From: [Chlorobium] sp. 445
GTDB taxonomy: Bacteria; Bacteroidota; Chlorobiia; Chlorobiales; Thermochlorobacteraceae
Direction of reading: 5' to 3'
DNA: 61,131 nucleotides
Assembly: GCA_002763895.1 (NCBI GenBank)
Contig: NSLH01000016.1
Location: 1-61,131, forward strand
Of this stretch, positions 5,590 to 48,942 are shown one piece after another. A program made the position numbers and the translations under genes. The notes below the pieces were generated by a model that did not search any database, was not told the origin of the DNA, and worked only from the letters and a program-made list of their open reading frames with translations. The stretch's first letter is position 1, and the number at the start of each line of letters is the position of its first letter.

Positions 5590-6569
5590 ATGAATATGCA
5601 GCCCAGTTACCAATCTGTTCGCAATTTTATCACGATGTCTAACCAAGACACCTTTAAGGTTTTGCTCATTGAAGATAATGTTGATCACAGTTTCCTCGTC
5701 AAAAGTCATCTGCAAGCCAAAGGTCGCTACCAAGTTGAGGTCACAAACTCTGGTGAGCAAGGCATTGAGTGGATTCGCGAAAATCCTTCTCGCTTCGATA
5801 TCGTACTTCTGGACTACAACCTGCCCGACCAGAATGGTCTTGACATCTTACGTCGTATTCAAGGCATTAGCCGCTTTATACCTGTCGTCGTGATTACCGG
5901 TTTAGGCTCAGAAGCTGTTGCAGTTGAAATTATGAAAGCTGGCGCTAAAGATTATGTTACCAAAACTGGGGAGTACTACAAAGCCCTGCACATTACGATT
6001 GACCAAGTGATGGAAAAGCACAAGTTTGAGATGCTCAATCTCCAACTTCAACAGCAGCTCGAAGAACGTGCAAATAAAGATTTTCTCACGGGTGTCTACA
6101 ATCGTCACCGTTTCACTGAACTTTTTGAACATGAAATCCATAGTGCCTCTCGATACAAGCGTCCCTTATCGGTTGCCATGATCGATATTGATAAGTTTAA
6201 GGAGATCAATGACAAATATGGGCATAAGATGGGCGATTTTGCGCTGGTCTGTATTAGTGATTTACTTAAGCAGCAGTTGCGCGCCTCCGATATTATTGGT
6301 CGCTTCGGCGGTGATGAATTTGTCGTTGTGATGCCTGAAACAGACGAAGCACAAGCTAAGGTAACATTTGCGCGCATTCAAAAAGCTTTAGAGGCGTTTA
6401 ACAAAAAGGGCAATTTCCATGCGAACTTTCGTTCTCGGTCGGTATCAGCAGTAGCAGCGAGGGCTACGAGAATTTGATTGAACTTGCCGACAAGTCTATG
6501 TATCACCACAAGCAAGCTAAAAAACGTGGTCTTGCTCTTTCTGTTGAAGATTCTAAAAAAGACAGCTAA
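5590..6569 (+). CDS. Response regulator with GGDEF output (diguanylate cyclase), frameshifted near the end
   Basis: Receiver domain (about residues 22-140, L-I-E-D-N, phospho-acceptor Asp in L-L-D-Y-N-L-P, Lys in Y-V-T-K-T) joined to a GGDEF domain that should make cyclic-di-GMP. The G-G-D-E-F signature is at about residues 240-244, with an R-A-S-D inhibitory site five residues before it. The frame is lost at the three-T run 6427-6429. With one more T the protein continues F-S-V-G-I-S to a stop at 6569, giving about 326 residues and the full C-terminal helix. The start is fixed by AGGAGG at 5576-5581, eight bases before the ATG. No partner kinase is adjacent. Confidence 0.88.
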
Positions 6570-29717: not shown

Positions 29718-30643
29718 TTATTGCGCTTTGCAAGATGCTGCAAAGACATTGAGCACAGTTTGCGCAACTTCATCAATCGACTGGGTAGTATAGAAAAATT
29801 CTGCACCTTCTCCGAAAGCTATGAGCGGCACAGGATTTTCTGTGTGTTTGTCGTTAGCACCATCCTCGAAATTTCCGTGATCGCTTGTCATCACGAAGAG
29901 TGTGTCCTTACTCATGCTCTCGAGAATTTTCCCTAAGAAGCGGTCTAAGCAACGGATAATCTCTGCGGGCGAGACTGGTATGCGCTGATGCCCCACAAGA
30001 TCAGTAAGAAAAAACTCATAGAACACAGCATCATAATTTTTAGAAAGACCTAAGAGATTTTCAGCTGCGGTTTCGGGGTCAATGGTGCAGAGCGCGTGAG
30101 GCTTTACATTTTGTTGCCACCACAGATTGGTAATATCGCTCGAGACTGCTTTACCTTCTTGCAGCTGCGTATGGCTACGCACTTCAATGTTTTCTATTAC
30201 AGCCATTTCAAACAACACAGAACTGCGCATTTTTCCTATGGCTCTTAAACTCAAACATCGCTCAATAAACGATTCAGGGTAAGCGTTTGCATAGCAGATG
30301 CTTTTACCTGCGCTTTCAGGGATTTAAAGAGATTCTGCTCTGCCAGCAATTCTCTCAGTGGAGTCGGCAAGTAAGGTCCAAAGTGCTTGCCAAAGAGTTT
30401 TGCACCATTGCGTGAGGTGTAGATGGAAAATTGTCCTGTGCCGCTTTGTCCTGTGCCACTCACGCCTAATGTGGCAGAAATTGGCAGGAAGACTTTTCTT
30501 GGCTCTTGCAGGGTTGCCTCTTCAAGGAGAAGTTCTTTAGTGAGTACGTTTTTAATCGAGGGTTGTGGGGTTTGTGCAAATGGATTTTGGTTGCTTCTTG
30601 GCGCCAGTCCTACACCATCGAGGAAAATGAAAATGAGTTTCAT
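29718..30643 (-). CDS. Alkaline-phosphatase-superfamily metalloenzyme (frameshifted)
   Basis: Two pieces join to one protein of about 308 residues. The first has the N-terminal metal site F-I-F-L-D-G-V-G-L; the second has F-L-T-D-L-V-G-H and the C-terminal S-D-H-G-N-F-E-D. These fit the phosphoglycerate mutase/phosphopentomutase-like metalloenzyme group. The shift lies near 30286-30296: one added base restores A-N-A-Y-P-E-S-F as a bridge. Unlike most shifts here, the spot is not a clear single-base run. Substrate unknown. It follows lysA directly. Confidence 0.75.
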
Positions 30644-30644
30644 T

Positions 30645-31891
30645 TCATATCTCGTTTGCAATCATCTGCTCAAAGGTTTCGCGCTTGCGTATGAGTTTTA
30701 TTTTGCGCTGATGTACCATCACTTCTGCGGCGCGCATACGTGCGTTGTAGTTGCTAGCCATCACGCTGCTATAGGCACCTGCGGACATAATCGCCATTAA
30801 ATCGCCTTCTTTAACTTCTGCAATCGCACGCTCACGCGCAAAAAAATCTCCTGTTTCGCACACTGGTCCTACAACATCGGCAATCATTTTTGTGGTTTTC
30901 TTTACAGGCATAATATCGTGATAAGCACCGTAGAGCGCTGGACGAATCAGGTCGTTCATTGCGCTGTCGAGAATGACAAACTTTTTCTGGTTATGATTTT
31001 CTTTAATGTAAAGCACCTTGGAGATGAGTGCACTTGCATTAGCGACCATGTATCGCCCAGGCTCGAAGAGAATTTTGAGTCCTGTGTTTTTGAGCAGTGG
31101 CAGTAGCGCGCGTGCAAAGGCTTCAATTGGGGTTGCTTTTTTTCGGAAGAATAGGTTACAGGAAATCCACCGCCAATATCAAGATGTTCGATTTTGAAGC
31201 CTAAAGTATCGCAGAGTGATTTGGCTTGCAGCAGTTTTAGTGTCGCATCGACATAATACTTTGGGTCGTAGATTTGTGAGCCGATGTGCATTTCAAGTCC
31301 AACCAGGCGTACATGTTTCAGCGCTTTGACTTCTTGCAAGACTTTCTCGACTAACACTTCATCAATGCCGAATTTCTGCTCATGATTGCCTGTGGTGATA
31401 TAGGGATGAGTTTCTGCAGTTACATTCGGCGTGATGCGCAGTCCGACCGGTGCCTTGAGTTTAAGTTTGCGCGCGATGCTATCGATCAGTTTAAGTTCAG
31501 AGAGCGACTCGGCTTTGAGCATTAAAATTTTGCTTTGCAGGGCATACTGAATTTCTTCTGCAGTTTTACCGACGCCAGCCATAATAATTTTTTCTGGACT
31601 CGCTCCCGCTTTGAGTGCGCGAAAGAGTTCTCCGCCCGAGTTTACGTCAAATCCGCTGCCGGCTTCAGCTAGCGTGCGAATAATTTCTAAGGTATAATTT
31701 GCTTTTACTGAATAGCACGTGAGGTGCTCGAGCGCATTAAATGCTGTCTCAAAGCGGTTAAAATTTTCAAGAATTGCAGTTTTGCTCGTTACGAAAAGCG
31801 GAGTACCAAACTTTTTAGCAAGCGAGGGTATGGAAATGCCCTCGCAATGCAAAACACCTTGTTTGTAAGAGAAGTAGGTATCGGGTAGCAC
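30645..31891 (-). CDS. lysA: Diaminopimelate decarboxylase (frameshifted)
   Basis: PLP enzyme for the last step of lysine synthesis. It has the PLP lysine in Y-S-V-K-A-N, H-I-G-S-Q-I, D-I-G-G-G-F-P, F-E-P-G-R-Y, C-E-T-G-D-F-F-A (the C-E-x-x-D substrate site from the partner subunit) and G-A-Y-S. The frame breaks at the seven-T run 31137-31143; one more base gives about 415 residues, the family length. It lies 8 bases after the AT-hook-like gene and is followed without a gap by the metalloenzyme gene. Confidence 0.92.
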
Positions 31892-31899
31892 GTGTGCCT

Positions 31900-32601
31900 T
31901 TATGCTCCTGGTTGAGATGATCCTTGCTCATTGGTAAGAACTCTGACAAGTTGTGCCAGTTCATTTCGTCCTGCTTCTGTCAGTTCAACGATATTTTTTG
32001 AGACAAATTGCACTTGCTCGCTATGCCGTTTCACATTATTTGTGAAATTATTGTCATAGACATTAAAGTCACGGCACTCTTCTCGTACTTGCTTTAAGTC
32101 AGCAACAAATCTACCAGAAATGATTGCACCGGCTAAGCAATTAAGCAACACAACATTCATCTGTGCTTTGGTTTTTTTGTCTGTTCCCAAAGTCTTGTAG
32201 AGCTTTACCACGTTCTCTTCGCCGATTCCAAAGAGGCTACGGACTGCATATTCAGAAAGTGCAGTTGTCTCTAAGAACCCACGAATGTTATCCATGTTTG
32301 GCTTACCGGAGATGACGAAGTCAGCAACTTCGGATTCAGCTAATAATTTTTTTTTGCGCCCTCTTTTGCTTTTCTGGACTTCTATCTCGCTTTCGCCCTT
32401 TCTTGGTCTGCCGCGTCCGATTTTAACGGGGCTTGTTTCTTGACCGGTGCTTCCTTCTGCTTTTTCTTTTGAGCCGTTTAGCGTACTTTTGAGCACGTCC
32501 TCAATCATTTTGTAGACAAACTGGCGCTCGTTTTCTGTGCATTCTGCACTAATGCGCTTAATATCATCAATAAGTGCAAGGAGTTTCGTATAGTCTTTCA
32601 T
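31900..32601 (-). CDS. Uncharacterised protein with AT-hook-like motifs
   Basis: 233 residues, not recognised as a known family. Residues about 1-45 are predicted helical. About 60-90 carry G-R-G-R-P-R-K-G and K-R-G-R-K-K-K, which match the AT-hook core (G-R-P flanked by basic residues) and could grip the minor groove of AT-rich DNA. About 95-225 look all-helical, with a conserved-looking F-G-I-G-E-E-N and T-E-A-G-R-N-E-L. It sits between siaD (164-base gap) and lysA (8-base gap). A DNA- or RNA-binding role is inference; a winged-helix C-terminus is an alternative. Confidence 0.6.
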   Translation of the reverse strand: MKDYTKLLALIDDIKRISAECTENERQFVYKMIEDVLKSTLNGSKEKAEGSTGQETSPVKIGRGRPRKGESEIEVQKSKRGRKKKLLAESEVADFVISGKPNMDNIRGFLETTALSEYAVRSLFGIGEENVVKLYKTLGTDKKTKAQMNVVLLNCLAGAIISGRFVADLKQVREECRDFNVYDNNFTNNVKRHSEQVQFVSKNIVELTEAGRNELAQLVRVLTNEQGSSQPGA

Positions 32602-32765: not shown

Positions 32766-33510
32766 TTAGTATCGCACTTGATTACGTCCGTTATGCTTAG
32801 CTTCGTAGAGTTTTTCGTCAGCAGCGGAGAGCATTTTTCAAAGTTTGGATAATTGATGTCAGCGCACACCCCAATGCTCATGGTTACTTTCAGTTCAGTG
32901 TGAATTTCTTTCCAATCGTGTGCTTCAATATTTGCACGTACTTGTTCTGCCAAGTGTTTTGCTTGATCCAAATTTGCATCAGGGAAAACGGCAACGAACT
33001 CTTCTCCACCATAGCGTGCTACTAAGTCGCTTGATCTAACGGATGTCTGCAAAATTTTTGCGACGGCTTTGAGCACTTCATCACCAATTTGATGCGAGAA
33101 TCGGTCGTTGATTTTTTGAAGAAATCTACATCACCAATAGCCACCGCCAAAGCTTTGTTGTGTTCACGGGCTTCATCGAAGAGCTTTTTGAGCATGCTGT
33201 CTAAATATCGCCGATTGTAAAGTCCTGTGAGACCATCGGTTTTGGCTTGCCGCTCTAATTTTTCATTAGCTTGCTCGAGCTCTTCTTGTGTGCGCAGAAG
33301 TTTTTCTTGTGTGCTATCACCGATGCGCGTAATTTTCATGGCTTGACGCAGCAGATGTCGATATTCTTCTGCTAAGCGTTGATACTCTTCAAGTAAGGTT
33401 TCTTTTGAGATCTCTTCGTTAGCAAGCACCGCTTCAGCGTGTTTTGAGACTTCCAGTTCAGTTTTGAAAATCTCTTCAATGTCCTTGCTTTGCTTGGATT
33501 TTTCATTCAT
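32766..33510 (-). CDS. siaD: SiaD-type diguanylate cyclase (two frameshifts)
   Basis: Makes cyclic-di-GMP. The N-terminal half is a long coiled coil with E-E-Y-x-R-L-A-E-E-Y-R-H-L-L-R-Q and I-T-R-I-G-D-S-T-Q, matching the SiaD stalk, followed by a GGDEF domain with D-G-L-T-G-L-Y-N-R-R, the active site G-G-E-E-F and an R-S-S-D inhibitory site five residues earlier. Shifts lie in T runs at 33112-33117 and 32834-32838; adding one base to each gives about 248 residues, close to known SiaD. In Pseudomonas, SiaD is activated by unphosphorylated SiaC, encoded here just upstream (gap about 26 bases). Confidence 0.88.
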
Positions 33511-33536
33511 AGCCACAAAAGAAATGTTAGGGAAAG

Positions 33537-33911
33537 TTACTTGTATGCAATGACTTTGAAAGGCAATGTTAGGTGTTCAGCGAATTCTTCGCCGGTTTCT
33601 TGCATTTGTTCATCGGCTTCGTTGTGATACCACATCACTTCGACTTTTTTGCCTTCGCTGTGCGCTTTTTCAAATACGCGTAGGATGTTTAAAATACACT
33701 TCGAGGAACTTGTGTTAAAATACTGCAAGCGGAACGAAAGCGAAGCCGCTTTACCTGATTTGAAGTATTCATTCAGCCAATCCATAATCGGTTGATAAAA
33801 CTCGAGTGCAGATTCAGGATAGGACTGACCTGAGATATCAAGTTTCCCTGTTTCTGCATTAAATGTAACGCTTGGCGTTGTTTTTGTACCTGCAATGATC
33901 AAGTTGTTCAT
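33537..33911 (-). CDS. siaC: SiaC-type phosphoprotein (DUF1987)
   Basis: 124-residue regulator that, in Pseudomonas aeruginosa, is phosphorylated on a threonine by SiaB, dephosphorylated by SiaA, and in its free form binds and activates SiaD. This protein has the family core Y-P-E-S-A-L-E-F-Y-Q-P-I, a Y-F-N-T-S-S-S-K stretch in which Thr67 is the expected phospho-site, and V-E-V-M-W-Y-H-N. Its start overlaps the siaB stop by 4 bases, which suggests coupled translation with its kinase. Confidence 0.9.
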   Translation of the reverse strand: MNNLIIAGTKTTPSVTFNAETGKLDISGQSYPESALEFYQPIMDWLNEYFKSGKAASLSFRLQYFNTSSSKCILNILRVFEKAHSEGKKVEVMWYHNEADEQMQETGEEFAEHLTLPFKVIAYK

Positions 33912-34469
33912 AGATTTTTGTGAATAATGATATTGAGAATGAAAAAGGAAAGTCGATCGTCGATTTCGGTAATTAAAAACTCTGCTTTTTCATCAGACTT
34001 ACGAATCATTTCTATCAAGCCCAGTCCTGCGCCTTTGCTTCCTTTAGGCGGTTCTTCGAATCGTTTTTTTTGGTGAAAGGCTTTAAGTTCTTCAGGTGAC
34101 ATCGCAATCAGCTGGCTACAATAGTTTTGAATTTCTCCGGCTTTTTCTCTTTCTATTGCGTTGCCTGATGTAATGACGAAACTTTTTTTCGTTTTCACGG
34201 ATGATAATCATGCCGACACCGACTTCTTTGCCATCATTTCTAATTTCTTTTTCTGCTGAGTAATAGAGAATGTTCTGCGCCATCTCCACAAAGACCGAAA
34301 ACATCTTTTGTACTTTGCTATTATTGCCCTGCTGCAACTTGACAAGTTCTCCGATTTGGACCAGCAGTTCTTGTGAGAACGCGCCTTTGAAGGTCATCAG
34401 CACACGTGCATTCGAGATGCGCTGATAGAATTCAAAGATGTCTTGAATGCCAAAGCGCGTCGGGTTCAT
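33908..34469 (-). CDS. siaB: SiaB-type kinase (GHKL-like), frameshifted
   Basis: Kinase expected to phosphorylate SiaC. The fold is that of anti-sigma/GHKL ATPases: an N-box-like V-E-M-A-Q-N-I-L-Y-Y and a G-box K-G-A-G-L-G-L-I-E-M in S-K-G-A-G-L-G-L. The frame is broken in the seven-T run 34183-34189; removing one base joins R-E-N-E-K to S-F-V-I-T-S and gives about 186 residues. Lies 58 bases after siaA and overlaps siaC. Confidence 0.85.
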
Positions 34470-34527
34470 AGCGGCGGCATGTTTTGAGTTTAGAGAGTTG
34501 CTTCAAATACAGTCTTTCAGATGTTTT

Positions 34528-37500
34528 TCAGTTAACCCGAATGCCTACGACTGTGATGTCATCGCGCTGTGGCTCTCGCCCCTGATGGCGCTTTAATTCT
34601 TCATCCAAAATTTCTAGTTGCTCTTCGACTGGTTTAGCTGCAATAAACTTCAAGAGTTCTCGCAAGCGTTTTGCCGCAAATACACGCATTTGCGAATCAG
34701 GCTGGTCTGCATAACCGTCTGTCGTCATATAAATCATTTCACCCACTTTCAGCTCAATTCGATGTTCAGTATAATGCCGCTCATCTTCTTGCTGCCAGCC
34801 CCCAATTGAGGATTTATCTGGCTTAATTTCGCACAATTCGCCTTCTTTTGTGTAGTATAGCGGTCGGCGTGCTCCTGCAAAACAGATTACGCGTTTTTCA
34901 GTATCGACAGATTTTTCTATCACAATTATCCCGACATCCATGCCGTCTTGACTGCCACCAATTTCATCATTTTGATTCAAAGCCCGACGCACTAAACGAT
35001 GCAACTCTTCCAAAATTTTAGCGGGATTCATAATGTTTTTTTCAATTACAATCTGCCCTAAGAGCGATTCACCAATCGCCGACATAAATGCACCGGGCAC
35101 ACCATGTCCAGTGCAATCGGCTACCACAAAAATGATTTTTCCTTGCTCTTCATGGAACCAATAAAAATCTCCAGAGACAATATCTCTGGGTTTGTAGAGA
35201 ATAAAATGTTCGGGTAAATGTGCTCTCAGATGCTCTTTTTCGGGCAGTAGCGCCATCTGAATAGTTTTTGCGTATTCAATGCTTGAAGTAATGTTACGAT
35301 TTTTTCCTCGAGCTCATCTTTCTGTTTTTGAATTTCTTCATTTTTCTTGCGCAGTTCCTGTGTCGCTTCCCGGACTTTTGCCTCCAGTTCTCGATTGCGG
35401 GCTTCAATCGTCTTGACGCGCTGTTTATAGCCGACATAGCCCAATGCTCCTACACTGACAACACCCAGCAGTGTGGCTAAAGACTGGAACCAGAATGTTT
35501 TCCAGAATGGGGGCACAATTTCCAGACTAATTTTTGTACCCTCTTCGTCCCAGACACCATCCGGTCCTGCTGCTTTGACATAAAATGTGTATTCACCGGG
35601 TTCAAGATTGGTGTAAGTTGCCTCGCGTCGTGCACCTGCATAATTCCAATTTTTTCGAAACTCTCGAGTTTGTAGGCATATTGATTTTTTGTTTGCTCGT
35701 AGTACGCCAACGCAGAATACTCTATGGAAAACTTATTGTATTTGTAAGGCAGTACAATTTTTTTCACCGATTGCAATAACGCTATCGCGTTCTGTGTCGC
35801 CCACCGTTTCTTTGACCGCAACGCCCGTAATGATAATCGGTGGCTTATACGACTTCTCACGAAAGGCTTCGGGTGAAAAGTTCGTAATAACACCCACACC
35901 ACCGAAGTAAAGGTATCCGCTTTCGCCTTTGTGGCATGATGGCAATTCAAATTGCTGGAGTTGCATATTTCGCAATCCAAATTGCACACCACTTAGCCCA
36001 TCGTAGTTCCTGAACATCAGTGGTTTTGTGTTAGCCGATGCGGCATCAGTGTTTGGTGTTACTTTAGTAATGCTCTTGCGCGTCTTGAGCCAGATAAACC
36101 CTTCGCTATCTTCAAAGACCCCATAGACAATATCGCTGCTGAGCCCATCACGCTCTCGAAATGCAGTGAAAGTTTGTCCACCATCCGTGGTTTTGCACAG
36201 CCCGCCGCCGTCTGTACCGACCCAAATTGCACCTGAGGCGTCTTGACAGAGTGCCCAAACTGAATTAGAAGAGAGGCTTTTCGGGTTTTGCGGTTCATTC
36301 AACATGCGTGTGAATGTATTACCTCCATCGATCGTTTTGCACAGTCCGCCACCGTTTGTACCAACCCAAATCGCTCCCTCTTTATCTTGAAAAATTGTCG
36401 TGATATGATTATTTGAAAGCGTTTTTGGTTTTTCTGGATCACTTTTGAAGACCGTCATCTTCCCGCCTTTCGCGGTGTCTAACTTATTTGCTTTGGGCAG
36501 ATAACACAATCCGTTTTTCGTGCCAATCCATAGATTTTCTTTTTGGTCTTCATAGAGTGCAGTAATTTCATTGCTGCACAGTCCTTTTGGATTTTCAGGA
36601 TAGTAGAAGAAATAGCGCAATGGTCCTTTCTCTTGCGCCTGCACGCACAACCCGCTTGCAGTGCCAATCCAAAGCATCCCTGATTTATCTCGCAGCAGCG
36701 CTGTGACATAGGCAGTTTCAAGGTCAATGGTAGCAGCTTTAACATCATCTTTAGCTTTCTTGCCTTTCTTTGCTAGCGACTTCTTAGGCTGCACTTTTGC
36801 TTTTTTTGCAGTCGATTTTCTTTCTTTGCCTTCATCTTCTTCTTTACCGACTTGCAAACGTCGATAGACTTTCGCTTCAGGCAGATAGCGATAGAGGCCT
36901 GCATCGGTTGTCCCCACAAGCAAAGACTCATCTTTTTCTTCCCAAATTGCCGATACTTTGCGCACGATCAACTTATCACCGCGTCTTGGATTGACCGCAA
37001 TAGCTTCAAATTTTGCACTGCCTGTAGGATTGCAGAGATAGACACCACCGCTCACGGTTCCCACCCAAAGTAGCCCTGCCCGATCTTGATAGAGGGAAAT
37101 AATTTGGTTGTCGGTCAAACCTGACGTAATCCCATAGTTTCTCCAATCTTTTTTGTCTTTTGTCTTCGCATTGAAGAGCCATAAGCCCCCATTTTCTGTG
37201 CCAATCCAGAGCCGATTGGACGTTTGCTCACAGATAATTGCCGGAAAAACTTTAATCCGCTCGCCTAAAGTTGGAAAGAAGGTTACAAAACGCTCGGCCT
37301 TCGGATTGAAGTAACACAGTCCATTTGCTGTGCCTACCCACACATTTTTGAATCGGTCAATAGAGATGGAAAGCACCGTATCACTACTTATGCCAGAGTT
37401 GTCGCCTTTCTTATAGGTTTTGAATGAAATGCCACCGTCCTCGGACTTACACAACCCATCTCGTGTGCCGATCCACATTATGCCCGAGCTGTCAAAGCAT

Positions 37501-38060
37501 AGTGCCGTGATGTCGTTGTCGGGTATGGATTTGCTGTTGCGCTCTTCGTATTTGAACGTTAGAAACGACTGACCTCCGTCAATTGTCTTACATAAGCCAT
37601 CTTGTGTACCAATCCAAATTGCTCCCCATCGGTCTTCACTAATGACATTGATGAATTCATTTGCAAGGCTATTTTGCCGACGCGGATCTGGAAGGATTGT
37701 CTCAAAGGTTTTGCCGCCATCTTCACTTTTGCACAGTCCATTTGGCGTGCCAATCCAGAGTGTACCATTGCGATCACAATGCAGGGCTTGAATAATATCG
37801 CTTGGAATTGTATTCGGATTTTGTGCATCGTAACGATAGACGGTGAAGGTGTAACCATCGAAACGATTCAGTCCGTCGTTTGTGCCAATCCAGATGAACC
37901 CGCGCTTATCTTGGACAATACAGTTTACACGGCTTTGCGAGAGTCCTCTCTCCGTCGTGAATTGTTCAAACTTTAGCTTGAGTTCCTGCGATTGTGCTAG
38001 ATGAGCACTTGTTAAAGACAGGCTTACTGCAAAGAGCACATACAAAGCAATATGGCGCAT
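34528..38060 (-). CDS. siaA: SiaA-like PP2C phosphatase fused to a periplasmic Reg_prop/Y_Y_Y sensor (three frameshifts)
   Basis: About 1177 residues when rejoined. A signal peptide (to about residue 24) leads into two-component-regulator propeller repeats (W-I-G-T-x-x-G-L-C pattern, over ten copies, to about residue 720), a Y_Y_Y domain (Y-x-L-E near its start), one membrane helix, a coiled coil, then a SpoIIE/PP2C phosphatase with S-G-D-F-Y-W, A-D-C-T-G-H-G, T-T-D-G-Y-A-D and R-D-D-I-T. Shifts lie at 35758-35764, 35650-35655 and 35265-35269, all single-base runs. A Lys-rich insert lies at about 36745-36850. Such sensors usually end in a histidine kinase; here the output is a SiaA-type phosphatase followed by siaB, siaC and siaD. 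Ligand unknown. Confidence 0.85.
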
Positions 38061-45807: not shown

Positions 45808-48800
45808 CTAATTACTTCCTACCGCACTTGGCGCTTTCTGTTTAATCAGCACGCTCGGCACAGATTTTTGTCTGACAAGTTCATTGAACATAGGCACATC
45901 TTTTTCGAGCAGTGTTTTCAGGGCTGAAAGTTCTTGATCGATTTGGCGCGTGAGTTCATTGCGCACGAGCAGCATTTGGTCGGTCGGTCGATTATCACCG
46001 CGTCCTGCCAGCGTTGCCAAGGCACTGAGTTTATTATTCAAGCGAATTGGAAAATTCAGCGGGTCTTGGCTGCTTCGGTTTTTAGTCTGATAGAGTGCCT
46101 CCTCAATTTTAGTCAGCTTGCTGACCAATTCTTTTGCCGCTGTGTGAATTTCTTTGTTTTCGTCTTGAGGTAAGCGCTTCACCAGTTGATTGAGCTGCTC
46201 ACGCACATCGCGAATTTGCTTGATGGCTTGGTGCGTCTCGGAGAGTTTATCTCGAGTGCTAATCAAAAACTCGAACTGTTCTTCTAAATCTTTTTGCGAT
46301 GCACTAACTCTTGGGTCTTTAATAATCTCAAAAGTCACTTTTTCTGTTTTACCACCGTAAGCTAGGCGCGCTTCGTATTTGCCTGGCACAGCTTTTGGTC
46401 CTTGTGTGCCGCCCGCCCAGAGCACTAATCCTTCAAACCGCTCTGCATCTGGATAGCGCATATTCCATGTAAATCGGTTTGACCCTGCTTTGGCATTGAG
46501 CCTTTCACTGTTCTCTTTTGCATTGGTTGAAAACGCACGAATCAGCTTGCCATTTGCTTCAAAGATTTCGAGCCTTGCAGGCTTAGTAGAGTCGGGCGTT
46601 TCTTTGAGAAAGAAAGTAAAGAGTACGCCGGCTTGTAAGTTTTCACCGACACCCTTGGGCTGCTTTTCAGGTCGTGAGCCCTCCATACGCACACTCGGAC
46701 GTGGTGTGTAAAGATGCAGGTCTTTCTTTGCAATTTCTGCTGTAAGCTCTCGCAACGGTGAGATGTCGTCAATCAGCCACAGTGAGCGCCCTTGTGTGGC
46801 GACAATCAAATCGCTGTCCTTGATGGTCATGTCCGTAATCGGCACAATTGGCAAGTTGAGCTGAAAGGGTCGCCAGTTCTCGCCATCATCAAACGAGATA
46901 TACACTCCGCTTTCTGTGCCTGCAAACAGCAATCCTTTACGCACAGGGTCGCAGCGCACCACACGCGTAAAATGCTCTTTGTCAATGCCTTTGACAATGC
47001 GCTTCCAAGTTTTGCCGTAATCCGTTGTTTTGTAGATGTATGGCGCAAAGTCGTCGAGCTTGTAGCGTGTTGCGGCAATGTAGGCACTACCTTTTTCATG
47101 TGGGTTGATTTCAATTGAGTTGATCATAGACCATTCAGGTAAGTCTTTTGGCGTTACATTTGTCCAAGTCTTGCCGCCATCGCGCGTGATGTGAATCAAG
47201 CCATCATCCGAGCCGCACCAGATAAGGCCTTTCTCCATGGGCGATTCTGCTGCAGCAAAAATTGTGCAGTAGTATTCCACACTGGTATTGTCTTTCGTGA
47301 TTGGACCGCCTGATGGACCCAGTTTAGTTTTGTCGTTGCGTGTGAGGTCGGGACTAATTGCTTCCCATGATTGTCCTTCGTTCGTGGTTTTGAAGAGCAC
47401 ATTTGATGCCGCATAAAGCGTATTTTGGTCATGCGGTGAAAAGAAAATTGGAAAGTTCCATTGAAAACGGTACTTCATGCCTTCTGCACCATGTCCCATG
47501 GGGTTATCGGGATAGACATTGATAAGCCGACGTTCTTTGGTGCGATGATTGAAACGCTCGAGCAAGCCGCCGTAACTACCGCCATAGACGATGTCGGGGT
47601 CTTTTGGGTCTACGGCGATATGTCCAGATTCGCCACCAGCCGTGATTTCCCAATCGGCTTCTGTAATGGCATAACCTTCGGAGCGATGCCGGATGCGCAG
47701 CGTTGAATTGTCTTGCTGCGCTACATAAATGCGATAGGGAAACACGTTGTCCGTTGTAACACGGTAGAATTGTGCCGTTGGTTGATTGTGGTATGTGGTC
47801 CAGTTTTCGCCGCCGTCGACACTGACTTGTGCGCCGCCATCATCACCGATAATCATGCGGTTTGGGTCGTTTGGGTCAATCCAGAGATCGTGATGATCAC
47901 CATGTGGTGTAGGAATTGTCGTGAAGGTTTTGCCACCATCTTTGGAGCGATGGAATTCGACATTGAGTACATAGACCATATCAGGATTTTTTGTATCAGC
48001 GTAGATGCGTGTGTAGTACCATGCACGCTGACGCAAGTTGCGGTCGCTATTGAGTTTGGCCCACTTTTTGCCACCGTCATCAGAGCGAAAGACACCACCA
48101 TCTTCAGCTTCAACAATTGCCCAGACGCGTTCAGGATTTACAGGTGAGACCGTTACGCCGATAATGCCCAGCGTACCTTTTGGCAACCCTTCATTTCGTG
48201 AGATGTTTTCCCACGTGTCGCCGCCATCGGTTGATTTCCACAGCAGTGAGCCTTCTCCGCCACTCTCAAAGCTATATGGAGTGCGACGCACACGCCATGT
48301 GCTTGCATAGATAATGCGCGGGTTTGATGGGTCAAGTATCAGATCCACCGCTCCAGCGTCATTGCTTACAAACAAAATTTTCTCCCATGTTTTGCCACCA
48401 TCTTTGGAGCGAAATACACCGCGCTCTGGATTCGGACCAAAGGCATGCCCGATTGCCGCTACATAGACCAGGTCAGGGTTTTTGGGGTGAATGCGAATAC
48501 GCGAAATGTGGCGCGTTTCTCGGAGTCCCATGTATTTCCATGTTTTGCCCGCGTCAAGTGATTTCCAGACACCGTAGCCATGCGAGAGATTGCCACGCAG
48601 GGTTTTTTCGCCGCCGCCTACATAGACGACATTGGGGTCTGATTCGCTTACGGCTACTGCACCAATTGAGCCGCCAAAAAATCCGTCAGAGACATTTGTC
48701 CAACTTGCGCCTGCGTCCGTGCTTTTCCAGACACCGCCACCTGTGCCGCCGAAATAAAACACATTGGGTTGCCCTACCACACCTGTTACGGCACACGAGC

Positions 48801-48942
48801 GTCCGCCACGATAGGGTCCAATTGAACGCCACTTTAGTGCATCATAGAGTTTTTCATCTATCGCAACTTGTGCTTGAGCAAATGCCGACGATACAAGCAG
48901 CCAAGCTAAGAAAATTGGCATGCAAAATGAGCGCTTATGCAT
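45808..48942 (-). CDS. Exported BNR/VPS10-type beta-propeller protein
   Basis: 1044 residues with a signal peptide (to about residue 24, A-F-A-Q-A-Q). Asp-box-like repeats (S-x-D-G-G-x-x-W) recur about ten times over residues 60-720, giving two stacked propellers of the sortilin/BNR kind often labelled glycosyl hydrolase. A C-terminal Ig-like part with S-N-R-F-T-W-N-M-R-Y-P and a helical tail (about 920-1030) follow. No sialidase catalytic set is obvious, so an enzyme role is doubtful; ligand binding or protein scaffolding is as likely. Confidence 0.8.
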   Translation of the reverse strand: MHKRSFCMPIFLAWLLVSSAFAQAQVAIDEKLYDALKWRSIGPYRGGRSCAVTGVVGQPNVFYFGGTGGGVWKSTDAGASWTNVSDGFFGGSIGAVAVSESDPNVVYVGGGEKTLRGNLSHGYGVWKSLDAGKTWKYMGLRETRHISRIRIHPKNPDLVYVAAIGHAFGPNPERGVFRSKDGGKTWEKILFVSNDAGAVDLILDPSNPRIIYASTWRVRRTPYSFESGGEGSLLWKSTDGGDTWENISRNEGLPKGTLGIIGVTVSPVNPERVWAIVEAEDGGVFRSDDGGKKWAKLNSDRNLRQRAWYYTRIYADTKNPDMVYVLNVEFHRSKDGGKTFTTIPTPHGDHHDLWIDPNDPNRMIIGDDGGAQVSVDGGENWTTYHNQPTAQFYRVTTDNVFPYRIYVAQQDNSTLRIRHRSEGYAITEADWEITAGGESGHIAVDPKDPDIVYGGSYGGLLERFNHRTKERRLINVYPDNPMGHGAEGMKYRFQWNFPIFFSPHDQNTLYAASNVLFKTTNEGQSWEAISPDLTRNDKTKLGPSGGPITKDNTSVEYYCTIFAAAESPMEKGLIWCGSDDGLIHITRDGGKTWTNVTPKDLPEWSMINSIEINPHEKGSAYIAATRYKLDDFAPYIYKTTDYGKTWKRIVKGIDKEHFTRVVRCDPVRKGLLFAGTESGVYISFDDGENWRPFQLNLPIVPITDMTIKDSDLIVATQGRSLWLIDDISPLRELTAEIAKKDLHLYTPRPSVRMEGSRPEKQPKGVGENLQAGVLFTFFLKETPDSTKPARLEIFEANGKLIRAFSTNAKENSERLNAKAGSNRFTWNMRYPDAERFEGLVLWAGGTQGPKAVPGKYEARLAYGGKTEKVTFEIIKDPRVSASQKDLEEQFEFLISTRDKLSETHQAIKQIRDVREQLNQLVKRLPQDENKEIHTAAKELVSKLTKIEEALYQTKNRSSQDPLNFPIRLNNKLSALATLAGRGDNRPTDQMLLVRNELTRQIDQELSALKTLLEKDVPMFNELVRQKSVPSVLIKQKAPSAVGSN

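Follow-up and report, generated by a model that had tools for sequence, protein, structure and literature searches.

The 61,131-nucleotide stretch analysed here (the window) is contig NSLH01000016.1 of [Chlorobium] sp. 445, whose draft genome (here G000) comprises 81 contigs, this one numbered C16. At 32766-38060 of its minus strand, Pfam and NCBIfam place siaA, siaB, siaC and siaD next to each other in one orientation. In our opinion this locus is likely a SiaABC(D)-type partner-switching module with a swapped input. The gene order and its conservation, the domain folds, the catalytic and acceptor residues and the stalk motif are all directly observed. The core of such a module is already known; what is new is the exchanged input and the putative general docking stalk. 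The wider part of our proposal, which we rate at about an even chance, is that SiaC would be a general phospho-switched clamp for enzymes carrying a stalk of about 80 residues, so that here one SiaC would set both cyclic di-GMP (c-di-GMP) and cyclic AMP (cAMP).

The sia locus and its conservation

34528..38060, minus strand: siaA, periplasmic Reg_prop/Y_Y_Y sensor, transmembrane helix, coiled coil and PP2C (SpoIIE) phosphatase
33908..34475, minus strand: siaB, GHKL-type Ser/Thr kinase (Pfam/NCBIfam, 6kko_A match)
33537..33911, minus strand: siaC, DUF1987/SiaC phosphoprotein (PF09345 E=8e-45)
32766..33516, minus strand: siaD, diguanylate cyclase (Pfam, NCBIfam, open reading frames)

A first-pass annotation, made from the letters alone, had read these as minus-strand genes for a phosphatase, a kinase, a DUF1987 protein and a cyclase, the middle two overlapping by 4 bases, and had proposed looking for the same order in other genomes. 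The genes are indeed present in that order, and the overlap lies at 33908-33911. NCBIfam returns SiaA (4e-56, over the PP2C part), SiaB_fam_kinase, SiaC and SiaD; the DUF6272 (SiaB) and GGDEF (SiaD) Pfam matches are each split over two open reading frames in the window. The nearest named relatives of the window genome are Candidatus Thermochlorobacter aerophilum and the Thermochlorobacteriaceae metagenome-assembled genome GBChlB. The order lptB-siaA-siaB-siaC-siaD is kept, with all four sia genes unbroken, in three relatives (loci L009, L010 and L011; siaA at L009:7745-11308, L010:7724-11263 and L011:4590-8150, siaD for instance at L010:5968-6711). Their proteins measure 1179-1187 (SiaA), 186-199 (SiaB), 124-125 (SiaC) and 247-278 aa (SiaD), and the window SiaC is 90, 89 and 74% identical to the three copies.

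The core of the switch

34534..35145, minus strand: PP2C catalytic domain with GDFYW, DCTGHGVPG, GMDVG, TTDGYADQ and QRDDITVV (PF07228 E=6e-25)
33247..33483, minus strand: predicted SiaC-docking stalk of SiaD (profile A1)
32996..33010, minus strand: GGEEF active-site motif of SiaD, with an RSSD I-site just upstream (sequence)

The catalytic features named in the first-pass annotation are all present. Its PP2C domain with all metal Asp motifs has a single match by sequence in the PDB, the P. aeruginosa SiaA-PP2C 6k4e (E=1e-38), and the aligned metal-binding Asp set is complete. The GHKL-like kinase matches SiaB in 6kko_A (E=8e-18) and keeps an E-MAQN box and a GAGLGL box; across 19 SiaB proteins the residues E75 and N79 and the GxGLG box vary little or not at all, and the intact relatives score 162-170 bits against SiaB_fam_kinase (cut-off 85). 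SiaC (151.7 bits in Pfam, cut-off 24.5) finds SiaC of 6kko/7e6g at E=4e-25, its PDB matches being the Pseudomonas SiaC entries. The acceptor site read earlier as Y-F-N-T-S-S-S-K places Thr67 (codon 33711-33713) in alignment with Thr68 of P. aeruginosa SiaC, in a conserved N66-T67 context. SiaD, likewise, has the GGEEF motif and the SiaD-type coiled coil attributed to it, and in its stalk the motif KITRIGDSTQ (33307-33336, minus strand) corresponds to the S82/D83/Q86 region of P. aeruginosa SiaD.

In P. aeruginosa, SiaB phosphorylates SiaC at Thr68 and SiaA reverses this; once free of phosphate, SiaC binds to the stalk of SiaD, whose inactive pentamer then gives way to an active dimer (PMC8457831, PMC7647112). 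By analogy we propose that the periplasmic double propeller would bind an extracellular cue, and that the signal, passing through Y_Y_Y, one transmembrane helix and a coiled coil, would set the PP2C activity of SiaA. SiaB would phosphorylate SiaC at Thr67 and SiaA would take the phosphate off; unphosphorylated SiaC would grip the SiaD stalk at KITRIGDSTQ and switch the diguanylate cyclase on, and the product may inhibit SiaD through the RSSD site. Phosphorylation of SiaC, the sign of the switch and activation of the dimer are what we infer from the Pseudomonas biochemistry.

A propeller sensor as the input

36060..37925, minus strand: 14 Reg_prop blades, two seven-bladed propellers (PF07494 E=1e-63; BT4663 model match)
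35550..35740 (approximate), minus strand: Y_Y_Y domain, split by frame breaks (PF07495 in the intact L010 ortholog)
35425..35495, minus strand: single transmembrane helix, then a cytoplasmic coiled coil to about 35265 (sequence, ortholog hydropathy)

More than ten Reg_prop repeats and a Y_Y_Y domain had been noted in the window. The intact L010 ortholog has 14 repeats, and its Y_Y_Y domain, which frame breaks interrupt in the window copy, is found there by PF07495 at E=1e-17. Its layout runs from an N-terminal hydrophobic segment through 14 Reg_prop, Y_Y_Y, a transmembrane segment (residues ~860-880 by hydropathy) and a coiled coil to PP2C. In an AlphaFold2 model of SiaA built on a six-sequence alignment, the periplasmic part matches BT4663 (4a2l/4a2m, E 4e-50) and also BT3049, while the C-terminal part of the same chain matches 6k4e (TM-score 0.80 by target). 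Based on these model matches and on the single PDB sequence match of the PP2C domain, SiaA is a protein that joins a predicted sensor of the hybrid two-component system (HTCS) type to a SiaA-type phosphatase.

The earlier claim that this input is new compared with Pseudomonas holds for the HTCS-like sensor on the phosphatase, but the arrangement is not unique. In a second family (f48; G278, G286 and G334) siaB and siaC come after a Reg_prop-Y_Y_Y-GAF-PP2C gene, and no neighbour encodes a GGDEF protein. The two propeller groups are separate in the SiaC tree, whose deep branches are weak. The usual association of such sensors with glycans finds no echo in the neighbourhood: none of the genes near the sia locus points to a glycan ligand and no polysaccharide utilisation genes were seen there, for which reason we rejected a glycan-utilisation locus.

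The stalk of SiaD and its distribution

From its sequence the SiaD stalk would be a portable dock for SiaC. In the 7e6g structure S82, D83 and Q86 of SiaD contact N67-T68-S69 of SiaC (PMC8457831). Profile A1, made of 14 aligned stalks, has as its top PDB match residues 64-100 of 7e6g_A, on the motif EKVARISDRYQ, a match that is weak when taken alone (E=0.1); when a single stalk sequence was searched against the PDB there was no real match, and 7e6g came first with the profile only. The conserved residues are an invariant LL, D-x-x-Q and L, and the D and Q that contact SiaC in 7e6g are invariant in 14/14 stalks.

Elsewhere in the Bacteroidota, genes adjoining siaC open with the same stalk and differ in what comes after it. 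The stalk is followed by HisKA-HATPase_c in L012-L015 and L036-L038, by a class III cyclase in L028, L032 and L039, and by a SpoIIE PP2C at L023:5876-6901 and L025:7467-8516, an arrangement that implies a phosphatase cascade. Stand-alone stalk proteins of 77-99 aa adjoin siaC as well (L019:7827-8084, L020:6503-6802, L026:6557-6814, L034:6706-6963 and L040:6628-6861); could these be adaptors without an enzyme of their own? In several of these loci the stand-alone stalk gene is followed by one for a TPR-like protein of very large size (L019:8087-11869, L034:2893-6702, L040:3679-6618). In Azospirillum lipoferum 4B (L044) two stalk enzymes come after a single SiaC, one a histidine kinase and the other a diguanylate cyclase; both carry KISDR[LM]QT. 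We found no paper that describes the stalk on other enzymes, in a search confined to open-licence literature, so that an earlier description is possible.

The survey of 392 genomes of the phylum, 21 of them with SiaC, bears on the same point. At E<1e-10 the stalk profile finds a protein in 16 of the 21 genomes with SiaC and in 1 of the 371 without it (Fisher p ~3e-23, relatedness of the genomes ignored). Some genomes with SiaC supplied rows of the profile, but the near-absence of the stalk from genomes lacking SiaC is not circular. The number of stalk proteins equals that of SiaC proteins in 14 of the 17 stalk-bearing genomes of a 43-genome set, the three that deviate being the window genome, G001 and G003, each with one SiaC and two stalk proteins. 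The genomes listed as exceptions to co-occurrence are G010, G075, G078, G123, G151 and G191; one further genome without SiaC has a marginal stalk match (2e-4).

Could the stalk simply be a generic signalling helix (S-helix or coiled coil), so that finding it on other enzymes would tell us nothing about SiaC? Coiled-coil linkers are common ahead of GGDEF, HisKA and class III cyclase domains. The weak 7e6g match would agree with such a view, as would the stalk cyclase of G010, a genome in which SiaC was not detected. Nevertheless, we consider this explanation unlikely and have rejected it. The window genome yields 2 matches only, although its GGDEF proteins number ~9 and its class III cyclases 6. 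A profile of just four GGDEF-type stalks from the family of the window lineage, run against 1739 open reading frames, finds all Bacteroidota stalk proteins at E<=3e-7 and the two Azospirillum ones at 4e-6 and 2e-4, whereas the next unrelated frame stands at 0.11; a profile from Proteobacterial stalks alone recovers most of the Bacteroidota stalks. Further, the co-occurrence with SiaC is near-perfect, and the residues that are conserved include those that contact SiaC.

A number of observations nevertheless weigh against our interpretation, either of the locus or of the stalk. NCBIfam sets equivalog cut-offs of 700, 225, 150 and 290 bits for SiaA, SiaB, SiaC and SiaD; the intact relatives reach 224 (SiaA), 91-113 (SiaB) and 188 (SiaD), and the window SiaC 117. 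Because of these scores we speak of family relatives of the Pseudomonas proteins and not of strict orthologs: the match to Pseudomonas SiaABCD proposed earlier stands for family, gene order and catalytic motifs, but not for strict orthology. The SiaA model is modest (predicted local distance difference test 68, predicted TM-score 0.43), with low values for the linker and coiled coil. Of the two stalk motifs of Pseudomonas SiaD the proximal one alone is recognisable here, the distal one not. Five genomes with SiaC have no detectable stalk protein and, conversely, G010 (a 420-contig assembly, SiaC not detected) has a stalk class III cyclase at L088:6712-7635. Finally, a PilZ c-di-GMP receptor was sought in the window genome and in its family, and none was found.

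A second stalk protein in the window genome

L080:4967-5950, contig C21: stalk class III cyclase, 327 aa (PF00211 E 1e-62)

The two stalk proteins that face the one SiaC of the window genome are SiaD and this unlinked class III cyclase, whose stalk motif reads KITKVGDTMQ. Orthologs of the gene are present in G001 and G003 (L081:4888-5835 and L082:4964-5944). In a structural model the motif sits within one long helix that leads into the cyclase domain, and the best fold match is 5o5l, an adenylyl cyclase from a bacterium, with 49% identity in the aligned region. The motifs KIKTIGD and YDLWGD hold Lys and Asp at the ATP-selecting positions of class III cyclases. To judge from sequence and model, the enzyme probably makes cAMP. 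Alongside its ~9 GGDEF proteins the genome encodes 2 EAL proteins and others that bind cyclic nucleotides.

Because the stalk is shared, the same SiaC pool may also serve this unlinked, adenylate-type class III cyclase, a possibility that in our judgement is evenly balanced. G002 retains no more than a remnant of the stalk cyclase (L083), the catalytic part missing; hence an arrangement with two clients is not universal in the genus. The output had been predicted to be c-di-GMP, and SiaD is indeed there, but c-di-GMP is probably not the sole output, given the stalk on the second cyclase.

One may go further and suppose that SiaC acts mainly on the unlinked cyclase, and thus on cAMP, with SiaD as a secondary client. 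The cyclase stalk retains KITKVGDTMQ and is conserved in G000, G001 and G003, which speaks for this. However, siaD belongs to the operon in each of the four genomes, and G002 has kept the operon intact with nothing but a remnant of the cyclase gene. We therefore regard this version as improbable and keep SiaD as the proposed first client.

Is SiaC the substrate of the phosphatase?

In principle the Reg_prop PP2C could act on some other phosphoprotein and merely be a neighbour of SiaC. The window genome does have four SpoIIE phosphatases, and the genus g3 has no phosphatase next to siaBC. On the other hand, among PP2C structures the sequence finds that of SiaA alone, the linkage to siaB-siaC is tight and conserved in two families, and PP2C and SiaB are fused elsewhere into one protein beside siaC (L019:5719-7440, L033:7162-9039). 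This makes another substrate quite improbable in our opinion, and SiaC remains the preferred one.

G004, G006 and G007 (L012-L014) have siaB-siaC-stalk-histidine-kinase loci without an adjacent phosphatase; their cognate SiaA must be encoded elsewhere, SpoIIE proteins of ~370-396 aa being candidates. The siaC neighbour at L041:4720-5814 encodes 364 aa and includes two SiaB-like domains. The cyanobacterial Slr1658 relatives have weak SiaB similarity only.

Frame breaks in the window

The six indels reported earlier are found as six frame breaks within 5.3 kb, mostly in A-runs: three in siaA (near 35.75, 35.65 and 35.27 kb), one in siaB (near 34.18 kb) and two in siaD (near 33.11 and 32.84 kb). 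Assembly error is the probable cause, since the nearby lysA and a phosphomutase-type gene (30645-31891 and 29718-30661, minus strand) are also split and three relatives have unbroken copies of the sia genes. Six breaks in so short a stretch could be taken for a decaying pseudogene cluster, a very improbable reading that we rejected on account of the homopolymer position of most breaks, the broken neighbours, the retention of every active-site residue and the intact genes of three relatives.

Relation to known systems

With P. aeruginosa SiaABCD (PMC7647112, PMC8457831, PMC12834913; 6k4e, 6k4f, 6kko, 7e6g) the locus shares the gene order, the PP2C, the GHKL-type kinase, the DUF1987 acceptor Thr and a stalked GGDEF with I-site. 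It differs in the 14-blade HTCS-type propeller with Y_Y_Y in place of the membrane sensor on the Pseudomonas SiaA, in having one recognisable SiaC motif on SiaD and not two, in its sub-equivalog scores and in the second stalk protein, a class III cyclase. The Bacteroides HTCS proteins, such as BT4663 (heparin sensor) and BT3049 (4a2l, 4a2m, 3v9f), have the same double-propeller Reg_prop, Y_Y_Y and single transmembrane helix; unlike them, SiaA has a SpoIIE/PP2C output only, with no HisKA-HATPase, receiver or AraC in the protein, and lacks polysaccharide utilisation genes in sight of its locus. Xanthomonas GdpX2 and GdpX3 (PMC6637768) also have a Reg_prop/Y_Y_Y sensor that feeds c-di-GMP synthesis, although there sensor and GGDEF are one protein, whereas here the path would run via phosphatase, kinase and SiaC. 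The SpoIIE-SiaB-SiaC operon of Azospirillum lipoferum 4B has one SiaC with two stalk enzymes, as in the window genome; its phosphatase input is different, and beside the diguanylate cyclase it has a histidine kinase as output where the window genome has a class III cyclase.

The authors of the SiaC-SiaD structure called the reason for a separate cyclase-activating binding protein unclear, and suggested that DUF1987 proteins modulate adjacent proteins (PMC8457831). With a separate clamp, different inputs (propeller, TPR, Cache/GAF/PAS) could be exchanged on one phospho-switch. So could its outputs, which would comprise c-di-GMP, two-component kinases, a second PP2C and probably cAMP, and in some cases two of them would be served together. 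The module would link HTCS-type sensing to second messengers, and the stalk would predict new SiaC clients, unlinked ones included, from sequence alone. If this is true, GGDEF, histidine kinase, class III cyclase and PP2C enzymes with a stalk would all be controllable by SiaA/SiaB, and one Thr phosphorylation would couple two second messengers under a propeller sensor.

Other features of the window

Rfam and tRNA scans of the window gave no matches. Between siaD and lysA, at 31900-32601 (minus strand), lies a gene whose 233-aa product has AT-hook-like stretches (GRPRKG/KRGRKKK) and matches no Pfam family; the gene is present in L009 and L010 and was not found in L011. A PleD-like receiver-GGDEF protein with its GGDEF domain cut short is encoded at 5590-6477 (plus strand), and a 1044-aa Sortilin/BNR-type propeller protein (PF15902 E 5e-38) at 45808-48942 (minus strand).

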